In this document: positions 50,104 through 55,878 of the stretch, piece after piece | How the letters are laid out: each line of letters begins with the position of its first letter | Position numbering within the stretch: position 1 is the first letter of the stretch | DNA from: a virus | Virus record (IMG/VR): IMGVR_UViG_3300037485_001697 | Location: 1 to 62,393 of that record | Direction: 5' to 3' (one strand) | Length of the DNA: 62,393 bases | The notes under the pieces: generated by a model | The model's input: only the letters and a program-made list of their open reading frames with translations | The model's database searches: none | What the model was told of the DNA's origin: nothing | Program-made: the position numbers and the translations under genes

Positions 50104-51296
50104 ATGGCTGGAAAGAGTTGGTACTCGACAGGTTTCTCGAAGGACAGCGGCGGCGGCAAGAGCGACATGTTCACGTGGGAACCGGACCGGGTCTGGATGC
50201 CTGCCAAGGACTCTCGCGACTTCGTCTTTGTTGACGATGCACCGTTGAATTGAGCGGCCTTGGGGAGTGATCCCCAAGTGAAGAACGGCGTTAATTCAGG
50301 GGAACTCTCTGGAGGGTCCAGAGACAATCCTGAGCGAAGCCAAGGGGTTTTATGTTGGTTGACAGTCAAAAAGTCACAAGCATAAAGTCCACCTCTAACG
50401 GAGGTGGCCCTTGGAACGTGCAGAGACTATCCCGCAAGGGAGTAGGGGCCGAGCGGCCTCGAAAAGCGCCGGGTCTGTTTGTGTTGCCTGTGGGGAGTGC
50501 CGCAAGATTCAAGCAAAAGGCTTGTGCTTGCGCTGCTGTCACAAAGAACAGCACTACAGATCGTGATATAGTCCGACCTCTCAGGCGACTGAGAGAGGCC
50601 AAGGTGAAGCGTCTTGGCCGCAACACAAGTGTCACCTTTGACGAGCACAACCTGAAGCTCAACGGGAACTGGAAGAACTGGATCACTTGCCTCGCGCCGG
50701 TGACCGAAGATGGCGAGCCTGCCTGCTGCCAAGTCGCAGGAAAGGACTCGCGCTACCGCGTCTCGATGCTCACGATTGTCGACACCTCGAAGTGGACCGA
50801 CAAAAAGGGCACCGTCCGCCAGTACGAGATCAAGGTGCTGCCTGCGAAGTTCAAGACTTCGCAGAAGCTCGACCGCAAGATGCAGGACTTGGCAAAAGAC
50901 GGGAAGTCGCTCATCGGGCGGCTCTACAAGGTCACCCGCGAGACCGACAAGAGTCCTGCAGTCGGAGACGACTACGAGTACACGCGCGACGTCGACATGA
51001 CGAAGCTGTTTGACCTCGTGACCTACAAGGGAAAGAAGCTGGCCGACCTCTACACCGCTGCTGACGAGAGCGCAGAGGCGTTTGCCAAGCTCTCGCGCGT
51101 GTTCGCCATCAGCAAGGGCGCCGACGGGAAGATCGTCCGGAAGCTTGTCCCCTTCCGCTACGACGCGATCTACGCCCCGAAGACCCCGAAGGAGGTCAAG
51201 GATCTGTTGGGAGGCTTTGACGCCTCTGAGAACACCCGCGACTTTGACAGTGGCAAGGGTTCAACAGCAGCTGTCGACGACGAAATTCCGTTCTGA
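50104..51296 (+). CDS. Phage single-stranded DNA-binding protein, interrupted by a group I intron
   Basis: Exon 1 50104-50245 and exon 2 50632-51296 join to 268 codons. Unspliced translation stops after 49 residues. Spliced, the junction reads DDAPF-TFDEHN, restoring the OB-fold strand that precedes LNGNWKNW. The acidic tip DDEIPF is the classic SSB tail that docks partner proteins. The protein coats ssDNA at the fork and should contact helicase, primase and recombinase. Exon 1 begins MAGKSWYSTGFSK and GAAGGA precedes the ATG. A second, bacterial-type SSB is coded at 60103. Confidence 0.85.
50246..50631 (+). ncRNA. Group I self-splicing intron without ORF
   Basis: 386 nt. P1 forms from exon CCGU with intron AGCGG, putting a U-G pair at the 5' splice site (after T50245); the intron ends in G50631. 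Core elements are present: P (TTAATTCAGGGGAA, about 50291), Q (AATCCTGAGC, about 50329; P4 pairs CAGG with CCTG), R (GTGCAGAGACTA, about 50418), and S (GATATAGTCC, about 50565; P7 pairs GACTA with TAGTC). No endonuclease frame inside. Frame and protein homology both agree with these splice sites. Confidence 0.9.
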
Positions 51297-51367: not shown

Positions 51368-51607
51368 ATGCGTGTTTTGGCTGTCCGCCTCCATCGCGGA
51401 CTGAACAAGATGGATGTCCTCGTTCAGTTTTCTGAGGGCTACTTGCGCATCCCAATCTCGTGGATGACCCGCGTACCGACCGACCTTCCTCCGGTGGATT
51501 GGTACGCAACTGTCCGTCGCGAGTGCGAGTTACACAAGGCACGGACCTCATCTGCCCAGCATTCCTTGCGGGCGTTGCACAACTTTCAGGCAGGGCGCCT
51601 AAAATGA
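51368..51607 (+). CDS. Hypothetical protein, 79 residues
   Basis: ATG at 51368 (GGTGCTGCC upstream, weak SD). Beta-rich start (MRVLAVRLHRGLNKMDVLVQ), Pro/Trp turn, basic helical end. Its stop overlaps the helicase ATG (ATGA). Not recognised. Confidence 0.62.
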   Translation: MRVLAVRLHRGLNKMDVLVQFSEGYLRIPISWMTRVPTDLPPVDWYATVRRECELHKARTSSAQHSLRALHNFQAGRLK

Positions 51608-54600
51608 AGATCGTCGTGGACACGCACGCGTGGATTCCGTTGGCAGAGCTGACACACATGCAGCGAAGCGCACTCAAGGCCACGCTCACCGTCACTCCTC
51701 GCGCTTTCCCCGGGTATCCGGGCCCACCTCCTGCCCCTATCCCGCTCTACGTTGAGAAGCCCGACTTCATCGGGATTCCCCGTTCCTACTTCATGGCGAA
51801 CCGTAAGGAACACCATGAGATCGTCGACATGACGACGACGGGTCGCCAAGACTTGTGGGACGGCCCCTTCACGTTCGCCGGTTCTCTTCGACCGACTCAG
51901 CAGGAGGCGATCGACAAGATGTCCGCTGCCTTTGGGAACGGCTTCGGTGGAGGCATCATCCGAGCGACCACCGGATGGGGGAAGTGCTTGCATCCCGACA
52001 CCCCGGTGCTTCGCTTTGATGGGACGCTGGTTCCGGTCAGGACCATACGGGCCGGGGATCTGCTCATGGGACCGGACAGCACTCCTCGCCGGGTAGAGGC
52101 TGCGAACGCTGGGCACGGTCCGATGTACCGGATCACACCGACCATCGGAGACCCGTGGGAGTGCAACGACGCGCACATCCTGACGCTGGTGGACACGAAG
52201 ACGGACGCAGTTCGTGACATCCCCTTGCAGGACTACCTGAAGCTCCCCCCGAGCTGGAAGCACCGCCTCAAACAGTTCTCACCTCCGACGGGGGTCGACT
52301 TCCCGTCAGCAGAAGCCCTGCCGCTGGACCCCTACTTTGTCGGCCTCTGGTACGGGGACGGAACGAAGGCCCTGAACGGTGTCGCCGTCAGCAAGCCTGA
52401 TCCTGAGGTTTTGCAAACTTGCCACGACATTGCCGCCAAGTTCGGTCTCCACGTTCGTACTGAAGCGATCGACGGAAAGTGCCCAACGCATCACCTCTCA
52501 GGTGTCGCTGGGAAACCCAACGCGCTCCTCAACATGCTCCGCGTCATCTACGGCGACGGCACCGCTCTGCCCCACCGATACCTGACAGCGTCGCGCGCCG
52601 ATCGACAATCATTCTTGGCTGGGTACTTGGACTCAGACGGCTACCACAACAATGGATGCTACGAGGTTGTTCAGAAGAACAAAGGATTCGCCAACGGCAT
52701 TGCCTTCACCGCTCGGTCTCTGGGGATTCGCGCGACCGTCCGCCTCAAGGAAGTGAACGGGGCTCCCTACTGGCGCGTGAAGTTTGCAGGCGATTTCTAC
52801 GGGCTCCCCTTGCGGATTCCGCGCAAGAAGCCTCGTCAGCGACTTCAGTTGAAGGTCGCGACCCGCACAGGGTTCTCCGTCGAGCGTCTTCCTGACGGGG
52901 ACTTCTTCGGCATGGTCCTCGACGGGGACCATCGCTACCTGCTGGGTGACTTCACCGTCACGCACAATACTGTCTTCGCGTGCGCGGCGATGGCTCGAAT
53001 GAACTGCCCGACTCTGGTGATCGTCCACAAAGAGTTTCTGCTGAATCAGTGGCGCGACCGCATCGCTCAGTTTCTCCCCGGAGCGAAGATCGGGATCGTT
53101 CAGCAGGACCGAAGTGAGTTCAAGGGCTACTCCGTTGCCATCGCGATGGTTCACAGCTTGGTGGGCGACCGTGACTACGGCGAGGACTTCTGGGACTGGC
53201 CGGGGCTGGTCATCACCGATGAGTGCTTTCCTGCTGGAACAACACTCGCTGTAGGCGACGGGTCGAAAAAGCCGATCGAACAGTTCGCTATCGGCCATCC
53301 CATTTTGAGTGCCGCAGGCGACGACACTGTGACGGACGTGATTCGACGAAAGGTGCCTTCTACAAGGCTGCGCCTCCTGCGTTTGTCGGATGGTTCTGAA
53401 CTGGTCTGCACCGAGGAGCATCCCTTTTTGAGTCTCTATTCAGGTTGGATGCCTGCAAAAGAGCTTGCGGGGATGCTTGTGTTGACGTCTGCCGGAGGCA
53501 TCGATACCCTGTCTAGTCATGGTACGGAAACACCTGACTCCTCTGACCTGCAAAACGTGCCTGAAGCCTTCCTCAGTTCGGAGAGGGCGTCGGTACTGCT
53601 CTCAAATCTGTACCGGCAAGGCGAAACAGCGAACGGACTCTCTTCCCCTATGCGAGTGGTGTGGGGTGGTACGCACAAAGAGCAGACGATCGAAATTCTG
53701 CGGGAGCAGCTGTCGCTTGAAATTCTGGACGCAGCAAGCTCATCTAAGGGGTCCAGAGAATTCCCTGCGAGTTCAGGAGTGGCATCGACTTCACCCGAAT
53801 GTTGCGATCGAAGCGTCTACTCGGATGCTATTGAACAACCCGATGCGTTCGGAAGCAACCCGAACGAAGGTGTCGGCGACCCTTCGATTGATAGGGCACA
53901 GACCTCCCGTGCAAGGCGGGAATGGTCGGGGGCTGACACTCCCCCAGCAGATGCTTCTCAATCTGTTGGGGAAAGGGTGGGAGGCCGAGCGGGTCGTTCG
54001 TACCAACCAGCCTCGCATCAACGCGGACCGTCTGCCGAGCCACTTCAAGCTGGACCTCGCGCTGCCAACGGAGCGCCTAGCGGTGGAGATCGATGGCCGG
54101 AGTCATTGTTCGCTGCAGGCGCAGGAGCGAGACCAGAAGAAAGACAAGTGGCTGCGTTCTTGCGGGTGGACAGTGTTTCGCTTCTCCAACCAGACGATTT
54201 TGTCCGCCTTGGAATCAGTGTTGATCCAGATACAGGGTGCGTTGACGTCTTCAACATCTCCGTGAAGAAGCACCCTTCATACGTTCTTCAAGACTCGAAA
54301 CTCCTTGTACACAACTGCCATCGGACGGCGGCAGAGTCTTGGTCGCGCGCGCACACCCGGTTCCGCGCCCGCTGGCGCTTGGGCGTGAGCGCAACCCCTC
54401 GCCGCAAGGACGGGGCGGAAGAGGTCTTCCTGAAGCAGATTGGCCCCGTGATTTTCACCTCTGCCGAGCAGCGCATGAAGCCAAAGGTGCGGCGCGTGTG
54501 GACGGACTTCAAGCTCATCCAGACCCCGACCCTCAATCCTGATGTCATCTCGAAGAACGTCCTCCTCAAGTTCATGTGCAGCAACGCGGCGCGAAACAAG

Positions 54601-55035
54601 ATGATCGCCGAGCAGATCGTCCTCGCAGTGGTCGCAGGCCGGAAGCCCATCGTCCTCTCAGAACGCCTCAATCACCTCGACATGCTGGAGGCGCTGTTCA
54701 AGCAACTGTGGAAGACGGGGCAGTCGACACCCGTGCCGACAACCGGCTTCTACGTCGGCGGCATGAAGGAGGAGGAACTGGAGACGGCTGCGGAAGCGCA
54801 GGTCATCTTCGCGACTCGCCAGTTTGCCGAAGAGGGACTCGACATCCCCATGCTCGATTCGATCTTCTTGACCACGCCGTTTTCGGACGTTGAGCAGGCG
54901 GTGGGTCGCATCCTTCGCCCCATCGACGGGAAGAAAGACCCCATCGTGGTGGACATCATCGACCCGAAGGTCAACTTGTGCGTCAAGTCGGCGACCTACC
55001 GAGATCGCCTCTACAAAACGAAAGGGTGGGAGTGA
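51604..55035 (+). CDS. SF2 DNA helicase (UvsW/XPB-like) with two inteins
   Basis: One frame of 1143 codons; the mature extein is about 451 residues (51604-51984, 52969-53223, 54316-55035). Motifs: SLRPTQQEAIDKM (Q/Ia region), Walker A TTGWGK-T split by intein 1, LVIVHKEFLLNQW, motif II ITDE-CHR split by intein 2, SATPRR (III), and QAVGRILRP (VI). This is the family of T4 UvsW and Rad25/XPB, which anneals and remodels forks and recombination intermediates. It stands between ssb and recA. Without protein splicing neither ATPase motif is complete. Confidence 0.88.
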   Translation: MKIVVDTHAWIPLAELTHMQRSALKATLTVTPRAFPGYPGPPPAPIPLYVEKPDFIGIPRSYFMANRKEHHEIVDMTTTGRQDLWDGPFTFAGSLRPTQQEAIDKMSAAFGNGFGGGIIRATTGWGKCLHPDTPVLRFDGTLVPVRTIRAGDLLMGPDSTPRRVEAANAGHGPMYRITPTIGDPWECNDAHILTLVDTKTDAVRDIPLQDYLKLPPSWKHRLKQFSPPTGVDFPSAEALPLDPYFVGLWYGDGTKALNGVAVSKPDPEVLQTCHDIAAKFGLHVRTEAIDGKCPTHHLSGVAGKPNALLNMLRVIYGDGTALPHRYLTASRADRQSFLAGYLDSDGYHNNGCYEVVQKNKGFANGIAFTARSLGIRATVRLKEVNGAPYWRVKFAGDFYGLPLRIPRKKPRQRLQLKVATRTGFSVERLPDGDFFGMVLDGDHRYLLGDFTVTHNTVFACAAMARMNCPTLVIVHKEFLLNQWRDRIAQFLPGAKIGIVQQDRSEFKGYSVAIAMVHSLVGDRDYGEDFWDWPGLVITDECFPAGTTLAVGDGSKKPIEQFAIGHPILSAAGDDTVTDVIRRKVPSTRLRLLRLSDGSELVCTEEHPFLSLYSGWMPAKELAGMLVLTSAGGIDTLSSHGTETPDSSDLQNVPEAFLSSERASVLLSNLYRQGETANGLSSPMRVVWGGTHKEQTIEILREQLSLEILDAASSSKGSREFPASSGVASTSPECCDRSVYSDAIEQPDAFGSNPNEGVGDPSIDRAQTSRARREWSGADTPPADASQSVGERVGGRAGRSYQPASHQRGPSAEPLQAGPRAANGAPSGGDRWPESLFAAGAGARPEERQVAAFLRVDSVSLLQPDDFVRLGISVDPDTGCVDVFNISVKKHPSYVLQDSKLLVHNCHRTAAESWSRAHTRFRARWRLGVSATPRRKDGAEEVFLKQIGPVIFTSAEQRMKPKVRRVWTDFKLIQTPTLNPDVISKNVLLKFMCSNAARNKMIAEQIVLAVVAGRKPIVLSERLNHLDMLEALFKQLWKTGQSTPVPTTGFYVGGMKEEELETAAEAQVIFATRQFAEEGLDIPMLDSIFLTTPFSDVEQAVGRILRPIDGKKDPIVVDIIDPKVNLCVKSATYRDRLYKTKGWE
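51985..52968 (+). mobile_element. Intein 1 with LAGLIDADG endonuclease, in the Walker A motif
   Basis: 328 residues inserted between K and T of GWGK-T. Block A CLHPDTPVLRFDG with Cys1, block B NDAHIL, endonuclease motifs FVGLWYGDGT and LAGYLDSDGY, block F/G RYLLGDFTVTHN ending in HN, followed by Thr as +1. Complete splicing and homing parts, so it may be active. Confidence 0.92.
52040..52053. repeat. Dispersed 14-bp palindrome, copy 14
   Basis: GGACCATACGGGCC in the intein 1 coding sequence; the palindrome has therefore also been kept or gained inside a mobile element. Confidence 0.6.
53224..54315 (+). mobile_element. Intein 2 in the DECH motif
   Basis: 364 residues between E and C of DE-CHR. 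Block A CFPAGTTLAVGDG with Cys1, block B CTEEHPFLS, C-terminal block SYVLQDSKLLVHN ending in HN with Cys as +1. About 230 residues in the middle have no intein character in this frame; they are the frame shadow of the endonuclease gene at 53519. Splicing blocks are intact. Confidence 0.88.
53519..54265 (+). CDS. Homing endonuclease (EDxHD/DUF559-like) nested out of frame in intein 2
   Basis: 248 residues in a frame different from the intein. The N-terminus has two Cys clusters (CKTC...CSQIC and CEWC...CGSSC) like zinc fingers of homing nucleases. The C-terminal part reads KLDLALPTERLAVEIDG, then SH, then RDQKKDKWL and GWTVFRFSN, the Vsr/DUF559 fold used by EDxHD homing endonucleases (catalytic Asp, E-x-D, His). 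No SD before the ATG. The intein frame stays open across it, so both products can be made. Confidence 0.82.
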   Translation: MVRKHLTPLTCKTCLKPSSVRRGRRYCSQICTGKAKQRTDSLPLCEWCGVVRTKSRRSKFCGSSCRLKFWTQQAHLRGPENSLRVQEWHRLHPNVAIEASTRMLLNNPMRSEATRTKVSATLRLIGHRPPVQGGNGRGLTLPQQMLLNLLGKGWEAERVVRTNQPRINADRLPSHFKLDLALPTERLAVEIDGRSHCSLQAQERDQKKDKWLRSCGWTVFRFSNQTILSALESVLIQIQGALTSSTSP

Positions 55036-55047
55036 GCCCTCGGGAAC

Positions 55048-55055
55048 CCTGTTAC
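55048..55055 (+). promoter_or_regulatory. CCTGTTAC promoter-like element
   Basis: 34 nt before the ATG at 55090; GGGAG lies between, so this transcript would have a conventional leader. Confidence 0.5.
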
Positions 55056-55089
55056 TTCGACAAAAGCACGCAGTCACCGGGAGTTCCAC

Positions 55090-55878
55090 ATGCAGCCGAC
55101 CGTCGTTCCTTCTGCCCTCGACCAAGCCGTTGACTCGGCTATTGCCGCAGTCAACGCGCAGGTGGCAGCAGCCGAAGCGCTGATCCAGCAGACCGCCGCT
55201 CCTTCTGAGCCAGAAGCGTCCGCTGCCCCTGCAGCGCCACCACCGGCTGACGTCACCACAGTCACCACAGTCACCACTGTCGCCAGTCTCACTGCCGGTG
55301 ATGCCGTCACCATCAAGGGTGTTCTCGTGACCCCCGAGACGCACCTGTACGAGAACGGAGTGCCTCTGCTGACGCCTACGGGCCGTCCTCGGCTCAAGCC
55401 GGAAGCGCGCAAGACGAAAGCACCTCCGAGCGAAAGCATCCGTGTCTACCCGTCCGGCAAAGCAGCACGCGCCGAGCCTGTCGCTCTCACCGACTCTGGC
55501 GTTATCGGAGTGCCTGCCGCAACACCTCCAGCTCCGGCTGCCGCTCCTGCCCCGATTCCGCAGACGGTGAAGCCGACGACGGCGACCGTGACGACGGTGT
55601 ACGGGAAGATCGGCCTCCCAGCGACGAAGGACGAGGAGATCGCGGTCCGGACCTTTGTCAGCACTCCAGCGATGGTTGAGATCGGCTACGGGCTGACGCT
55701 GAACATCGGCAACTACGAGAGCGCGCGCATCGACGTCCGCATCTCACTCCCCTGCTACCCCGAAGAGGCCGACGGCGCCTTCTCTTTCGCGAAGAAGTGG
55801 ACCGAGGAACGCATCCAGACCGAAGTCAAAGCGATCCGCCAGATCGCATCCGGAACCAAGTCCAACACACCTTTCTGA
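55090..55878 (+). CDS. Hypothetical protein with phage beta domain, 262 residues
   Basis: The N-terminal 160 residues are Ala/Pro/Thr-rich low complexity (VTTVTTVTTVAS). The C-terminal 70 form a compact domain: VEIGYGLTLNIGNYESARID followed by VRISLPCYPEE, a pattern I know from uncharacterised phage proteins coded near recombination genes. The domain may be an OB-like fold. Lies directly upstream of recA. Confidence 0.7.
   Translation: MQPTVVPSALDQAVDSAIAAVNAQVAAAEALIQQTAAPSEPEASAAPAAPPPADVTTVTTVTTVASLTAGDAVTIKGVLVTPETHLYENGVPLLTPTGRPRLKPEARKTKAPPSESIRVYPSGKAARAEPVALTDSGVIGVPAATPPAPAAAPAPIPQTVKPTTATVTTVYGKIGLPATKDEEIAVRTFVSTPAMVEIGYGLTLNIGNYESARIDVRISLPCYPEEADGAFSFAKKWTEERIQTEVKAIRQIASGTKSNTPF

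Follow-up and report, generated by a model that had tools for sequence, protein, structure and literature searches.

We analyzed a virus record from IMG/VR (IMGVR_UViG_3300037485_001697; the full record of 62,393 bases, hereafter the window) in which a single open frame encodes a predicted superfamily 2 (SF2) helicase interrupted by two inteins. The second of these, intein 2, is very probably a mobile element made of two overprinted genes, one for a splicing HINT domain and one for a separate homing endonuclease that is read one base ahead of it. The evidence is computed, and consists of the two frames, the predicted folds, the pattern of selection, the recurrence of the arrangement at one register and the existence of precise empty sites. 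The helicase, intein 2 and the nested open reading frame (ORF) had been outlined in an initial annotation made from the letters alone, and their coordinates proved exact.

We infer that the intein splices and that the endonuclease is translated internally, cleaves DNA and drives homing; these activities would work together as follows. Read in the helicase frame, the element would yield HintN and HintC with a long, unstructured linker between them, and this product would splice itself out of the helicase. In the frame one base ahead, the DNA of the linker would yield an independent EDxHD homing endonuclease with zinc clusters. This endonuclease would cut intein-less alleles near the conserved DExH codons, and repair from an occupied copy would insert intein and endonuclease together. 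The intein would render the insertion harmless and the endonuclease would render it mobile. Selection acts on the amino acids of the endonuclease and, over most of the overlap, on the intein frame by the exclusion of stops only.

Two reading frames in one intein

The helicase ORF is unbroken from its ATG at 51604 to 55032, ahead of a stop at 55033-55035, and matches to helicase families assign its product, initially annotated as UvsW-like, to SF2. Intein 2 is placed between DE and CHR of the DExH box, a site that intein-less homologues of the helicase continue straight across. As initially annotated, its frame stays open for 364 codons and its splice ends are intact, with C1, a terminal HN, a +1 Cys and an insertion site in a conserved motif. 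An AlphaFold model of the intein frame comprises two HINT halves (residues 1-100 and 312-364, mostly at a predicted local distance difference test score, pLDDT, of 94-98) and a mostly disordered link of about 210 residues. Foldseek matches this model to solved inteins at a probability of 1.00, with gp41-1 first and Prp8 and RecA among the others, and sequence profiles match the Hint, Vint, and intein N- and C-terminal models weakly. By its modeled structure, intein 2 is predicted to carry the HINT fold, and it has the splice-junction residues of an intein. Were the insert removed as RNA by a group I or group II intron, the open host frame would be irrelevant, and a group I intron does lie nearby in the window (~50236-50631). 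However, no Rfam match was found over 51400-55200 even at E 0.1, which rules out a group I intron at intein 2, and the HINT fold and splice-junction residues are present in a host frame that stays open. We regard the chance of removal as RNA as close to nil.

The nested ORF is wholly contained in intein 2; its frame runs one base ahead of that of the intein, and its product has 248 residues. The initial annotation had described this protein as an EDxHD/DUF559-like nuclease with two Cys clusters and had proposed a search against DUF559/Vsr profiles. That search bore the description out: a C-terminal domain matches PF04480 (DUF559) at 7.2e-13, exceeding the curated cut-off, and the protein matches PRK09767 (DUF559) at 3e-8. 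The Cys clusters are C11/C14/C27/C31 and C45/C48/C61/C65, of which the second is unchanged across nine aligned phage and window sequences. E190, D192, H196 and D205 are invariant among 40 nuclease relatives and, assigned by position, are the likely residues of the EDxHD motif. The AlphaFold model of the nuclease has a mean pLDDT of 90.3, and Foldseek matches it to 3hrl, to I-Bth0305I (3r3p) and, more weakly, to Vsr (1vsr); on this model, the nested protein is predicted to have a Vsr-like/DUF559 nuclease fold.

We then asked how many stops the intein frame should contain if only the nuclease mattered, by shuffling the synonymous codons of the nuclease with its protein and codon usage retained. 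Shuffling the window's gene gives a mean of 8.3 intein-frame stops where 0 are observed (P < 1/4000), in agreement with the initial claim that one segment codes for both the intein and an overprinted nuclease. Across 83 nested loci (described below), 559 stops were expected and 0 observed, and 70 of the 83 were individually under 0.01; these loci are related and hence not independent trials, with large divergence among them. The test is conservative, because the codon sets have already been purged of stops. It is thus very improbable that the open intein frame is a by-product of codon usage or chance, with the nuclease alone coding and the inteins dead. Residues of the intein frame in mid-overlap are indeed poorly conserved and predicted to be disordered, as such a by-product would be, but the lack of stops with nuclease codon usage retained refutes this alternative statistically. 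Moreover, the third frame of nested loci contains 2-24 stops, and HintN, HintC and the exteins are conserved, with third-position change typical of their frame and intact splice-junction residues.

The initial annotation had also proposed comparing change in both frames among relatives. Within the overlap, differences between pairs of relatives cluster at nuclease position 3, which is intein position 1 (57/54/118 for the window versus its relative L012), and most of those in HintN, HintC and the extein are at host-frame position 3. This bias indicates that over most of the overlap the residues of the nuclease matter and the intein frame merely stays readable. The nuclease frame is thus under purifying selection, and the intein frame in most of the overlap is essentially kept open. 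At the 3' end of the overlap, the GWTVxRFxN strand of the nuclease is encoded over the RVDSVEV strand of HintC. In the GW+8 segment, change at nuclease position 3 is slowed (0.33 vs 0.52 differences per codon, p 4e-5), as it is at positions 1 and 2, and where the C-terminus of the nuclease lies over folded HintC, constraint seems to act on both frames. One member, L028, has a stop in the nuclease frame with its host frame intact, and is the sole such broken member; L087 was considered as a second and rejected, as its start falls after the stop. Among the loci read, a broken host frame with an intact nuclease occurs only in split genes and in two free-standing copies.

Recurrence and proposed translation of the nested nuclease

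A tblastn search of annotated phages with the 248-residue protein matched 40 records, and the matched features are annotated as helicase, P-loop protein, coil-containing protein or hypothetical protein. Eight named phage loci, covering the main types, were read in detail. All eight have a single open helicase coding sequence (CDS) with an unannotated nuclease at +1, and in all eight the intein begins after DE and finishes with HN before C. Searching IMG/VR with the window nuclease alone gave no confirmed relative, and searching it with a nine-sequence nuclease alignment gave at least 275, of which we fetched the best 80, chosen solely by nuclease homology. The +1 host frame is open across the nuclease match in 76 of these 80 loci, where the third frame contains 2-24 stops; in the other four it is not open and has 14-23 stops in each. 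Genome contigs added 23 nested bacterial or prophage loci, such as one in Ktedonobacter racemifer DSM 44963 (L093). The register is +1 in every nested locus of the phage, IMG/VR and bacterial-genome sets. More distant, ordinary DUF559 proteins have stops in the corresponding frame.

Hosts of overprinted inteins include ResIII/DEAD helicases, SNF2 and XPD-like helicases, and terminase large subunits. Inteins in helicase hosts are located at the DExx (Walker B) box, and on contigs that bear the junctions the N side nearly always follows DE or DEAH, with HN or SN before C or S on the C side. Overprinted inteins were also seen in the phage terminase large subunits L015 and L038 (Terminase_6C, Terminase_3), suggesting a target common to different NTPase families. 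The 85 nested loci from phages and IMG/VR form 70 clusters at 90% nuclease identity; the overprint is old, is common to all 70 and is no local event. Overprinted inteins thus appear to be a common, unannotated form of mobile intein and a large, apparently undescribed class, whose nested nucleases have been missed by annotation because the host frame alone is called.

How the nuclease would be translated is suggested by its start sites. Taking the ATG nearest the first Cys cluster, and counting a Shine-Dalgarno match as strong at -5 kcal/mol or better, we found strong matches at 43% of 67 loci, compared with 12% of 1179 control ATGs (p 1.7e-6), which makes internal initiation likely in many members. 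Another possibility is that the nuclease is a recoded domain and no separate gene: ribosomes would be programmed to shift into +1 after HintN and so make an intein-nuclease fusion. A register that is always +1 would suit such recoding, as would the lack of a Shine-Dalgarno match at the internal ATG in the window and some relatives. Yet common descent also accounts for the constant register, strong internal ribosome sites are present in many members, and nowhere in the overlap does a stop interrupt the intein frame, which shows that it is read through. Nor was any shared slippery site or stalling structure noticed, a shared hairpin having been tested for and not found. Frameshifting is therefore quite unlikely; it is unnecessary to explain the data and not favored by them, and we retain the reading of a separate, overprinted gene.

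The nuclease starts of the window (53499-53535), L012 and L016, which have no Shine-Dalgarno match, share a GATACCNTGTC stretch and have imperfect inverted repeats around the ATG. An RNA hairpin as a shared start control was considered for the repeats in L016, L012 and L002, and was rejected when the folding z-scores of 67 starts showed no difference from those of control ATGs.

Probable mobility and possible origin of the element

Close relatives of the window provide empty sites. In two loci (L173 and L174) the same helicase, 99% identical to the window's, has neither intein, and in L173, whose flanking DNA is ~99% identical to the window, both inteins are precisely missing. Both sites are also empty in L175 and in the more distant L177, while L012 (on the same contig as L176) has an intein at site 2 only. 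That ~99%-identical phages are without it indicates that the whole intein-plus-nuclease unit was gained or lost recently in the window helicase. Phages phi673 (occupied) and phi674 (empty) form a similar pair, 99% identical across the gene with a precise 906-base difference, and they differ by Val versus Cys at the first extein residue. Their describers recorded the presence and absence of the intein and no second frame (PMC6132909).

Precise presence and absence between near-identical phages is what homing predicts, as is the occupation of the same DExx codons in many different NTPases. Given that the roles of DUF559/Vsr-like proteins are varied, the nested nuclease might instead serve another function, for example in repair or in some domesticated role. 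We consider this unlikely, since in addition to these patterns the nearest solved homing relative is I-Bth0305I, and in two relatives a free-standing nuclease gene (L034:3800-4429 and L040:3355-3996) directly precedes an SF2 helicase ORF that has no intein and that it slightly overlaps, the arrangement expected of intronless homing.

Some results count against taking intein 2 for a mobile pair of overprinted genes. The Pfam scores of the intein frame, for the intein alone, are under the curated cut-offs; no Shine-Dalgarno match precedes the ATG of the window nuclease; and presence and absence in close relatives cannot by itself separate gain from loss. Over longer times, the distances of nuclease, HintN and extein correlate (Mantel r 0.26-0.53, all p 0.0005). 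As the tie between nuclease and HintN is no tighter than that of either with the extein, movement as one unit over such times is neither proven nor refuted.

A few relatives are split. In L088, L090 and L100, a helicase-HintN gene stops just within the nuclease gene and a HintC-helicase gene begins within its 3' end, and the overprinted registers are retained, with the nuclease at +1 and both halves in one frame. A quick tree (142 columns, with many open forks, no inferred root and a weak inner order) parts the nested-nuclease clade from ordinary DUF559 proteins with a support of 97 and places the three split loci as one group (support 99) among overprinted members. On the simplest reading, stops would have accumulated in an overprinted host frame after trans-splicing permitted it, which suggests overprinted inteins as a possible source of split ones.

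As to how the arrangement arose, the initial annotation had proposed that a free-standing endonuclease gene invaded a mini-intein. The invasion itself fits both the free-standing nucleases of L034 and L040 and Vibrio phage PS65A.1 (L010), whose helicase is that of L004-L007 and has, at the identical site, a mini-intein of ~140 residues without a nuclease; as an event local to this phage it does not stand, the overprint being shared by 70 clusters. The L010 CDS (2492-5623) carries a LAGLIDADG intein at Walker A and the mini-intein at the DExH box, matching the window's two sites, with no overprinted nuclease. A broader history, which we judge evenly balanced between true and false, is that the widespread overprinted inteins were founded once by an EDxHD gene entering a mini-intein at +1, spread through the DExx boxes of phage and bacterial NTPase genes, and became the source of fractured genes and natural split inteins once stops entered the host frame.

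Features of the window are collected in Table 1. Upstream of the helicase, a local search found a group I intron at 50236-50631 (Rfam RF00028, 56.2 bits, E 1.9e-13). It falls within or ahead of the gene to which ORF 50352-51296 belongs, and 385 of its bases (~50247-50631) are missing from L173, which is ~99% identical around it. The called ATG of this 314-residue ORF lies inside the intron, so that the true N-terminal codons probably precede 50247. Within 4 kb there are thus three insertions, inteins or self-splicing, and every one of them differs between near-identical phages.

Table 1. Positions of the helicase gene, its inteins and the overprinted nuclease in the window
Feature	Position	Strand	Basis
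SF2 helicase gene (ResIII domain) with two inteins inside	51604..55035	+	Single open frame; ResIII 1.1e-14; PHROG 16 DNA helicase 5e-35
Intein 1, Walker A (GWGK^C...HN^T), ordinary in-frame LAGLIDADG endonuclease	51985..52968	+	Hom_end_hint, Hom_end, LAGLIDADG_3; precisely absent in L173
Intein 2, DExH box (DE^C...HN^C), 364 codons, host frame open throughout	53224..54315	+	Splice ends; AlphaFold/Foldseek predicted fold; absent in L173
HintN half of intein 2, residues 1-100, predicted folded	53224..53523	+	pLDDT 94-98, dropping to 75 at residues 91-100
Overprinted putative EDxHD/DUF559 homing endonuclease gene, +1 relative to intein frame, ATG to TGA, 248 residues	53519..54265	+	PF04480 E 7.2e-13; pLDDT 90.3; Foldseek 3hrl, 3r3p
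Stretch with only the nuclease predicted folded; intein frame a mostly disordered, stop-free linker	53524..54156	+	Intein residues 101-309 mostly pLDDT < 50; stop avoidance; codon-position pattern
Two Cys4 (zinc-finger-like) clusters of the nuclease, residues 11-31 and 45-65	53549..53713	+	Sequence; second cluster invariant in alignment
Presumed EDxHD catalytic motif (E190, D192, H196, D205)	54086..54133	+	Invariant in 40 relatives
Dual-coding tail, nuclease residues 214-248 over the start of folded HintC	54157..54265	+	Both frames predicted folded; fewer third-position changes in GW+8 segment
HintC half of intein 2, block F/G and terminal HN	54157..54315	+	pLDDT 94-97

Comparison with known systems

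The endonuclease of full-length inteins is a domain in the intein's own frame (PMC3943268). Intein 2 resembles this PI-SceI type, to which intein 1 also belongs, in having a HINT domain, an endonuclease segment between HintN and HintC, and splicing and mobility apparently combined in one insertion. It differs in that the nuclease is a separate ORF at +1, where the intein's own residues form a predicted disordered linker.

Fractured genes, reportedly described by Dassa et al. in 2009, are said to place a free-standing EDxHD/Vsr-like endonuclease between the two parts of a split intein. The same nuclease family occupies the same slot here, and L088, L090 and L100 are arranged exactly so; the difference is that the host gene stays whole in the window and in most relatives, where the intein frame crosses the nuclease gene without a stop. 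The gp41-1 intein originates from a fractured phage helicase gene. This intein (PDB 6qaz) is the best solved fold match of intein 2, and is split and without an overprinted gene. Two papers cite the fractured genes of Dassa (PMC10448857; PMC12350094).

The ShiLan domain of a phage methylase, an insertion whose 'hidden' HNH endonuclease is read out of frame (Arsenault, Gosselin and Gogarten, 2025; PMC11855218), is held by its authors to be neither intein nor intron and to have no splicing domain, and a further out-of-frame HNH example has been reported (PMC12613952). Like intein 2, ShiLan is a mobile insertion that leaves the host frame open and has its endonuclease in another frame. It differs in being an HNH enzyme in another host gene with no splicing domain, whereas the window has a putative EDxHD enzyme within an intein that carries a predicted HINT domain.

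I-Bth0305I (PDB 3r3p), the founding EDxHD homing endonuclease, has the same fold as the model of the nested nuclease (Foldseek probability 1.00, target TM-score 0.77; hmmsearch E 0.011). It is a 'mobile intron protein' by its PDB title and has no intein overprint; identity in the aligned domain is ~20%, and the N-terminal Cys clusters of the window nuclease are unmatched to 3r3p.

Our literature search found no out-of-frame endonuclease within a true intein, a mention in Dassa 2009 or Taylor 2011 being possible. Overprinted inteins supply a large natural collection of long overlaps between same-strand genes whose two functions are independent. They also point to a possible route from continuous to split inteins, and because the fractured relatives keep the exact overprinted registers, such an origin is testable with defined pairs. 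Intein homing endonucleases have been described as in-frame fused domains; here the two activities would belong to separate ORFs that overwrite each other.
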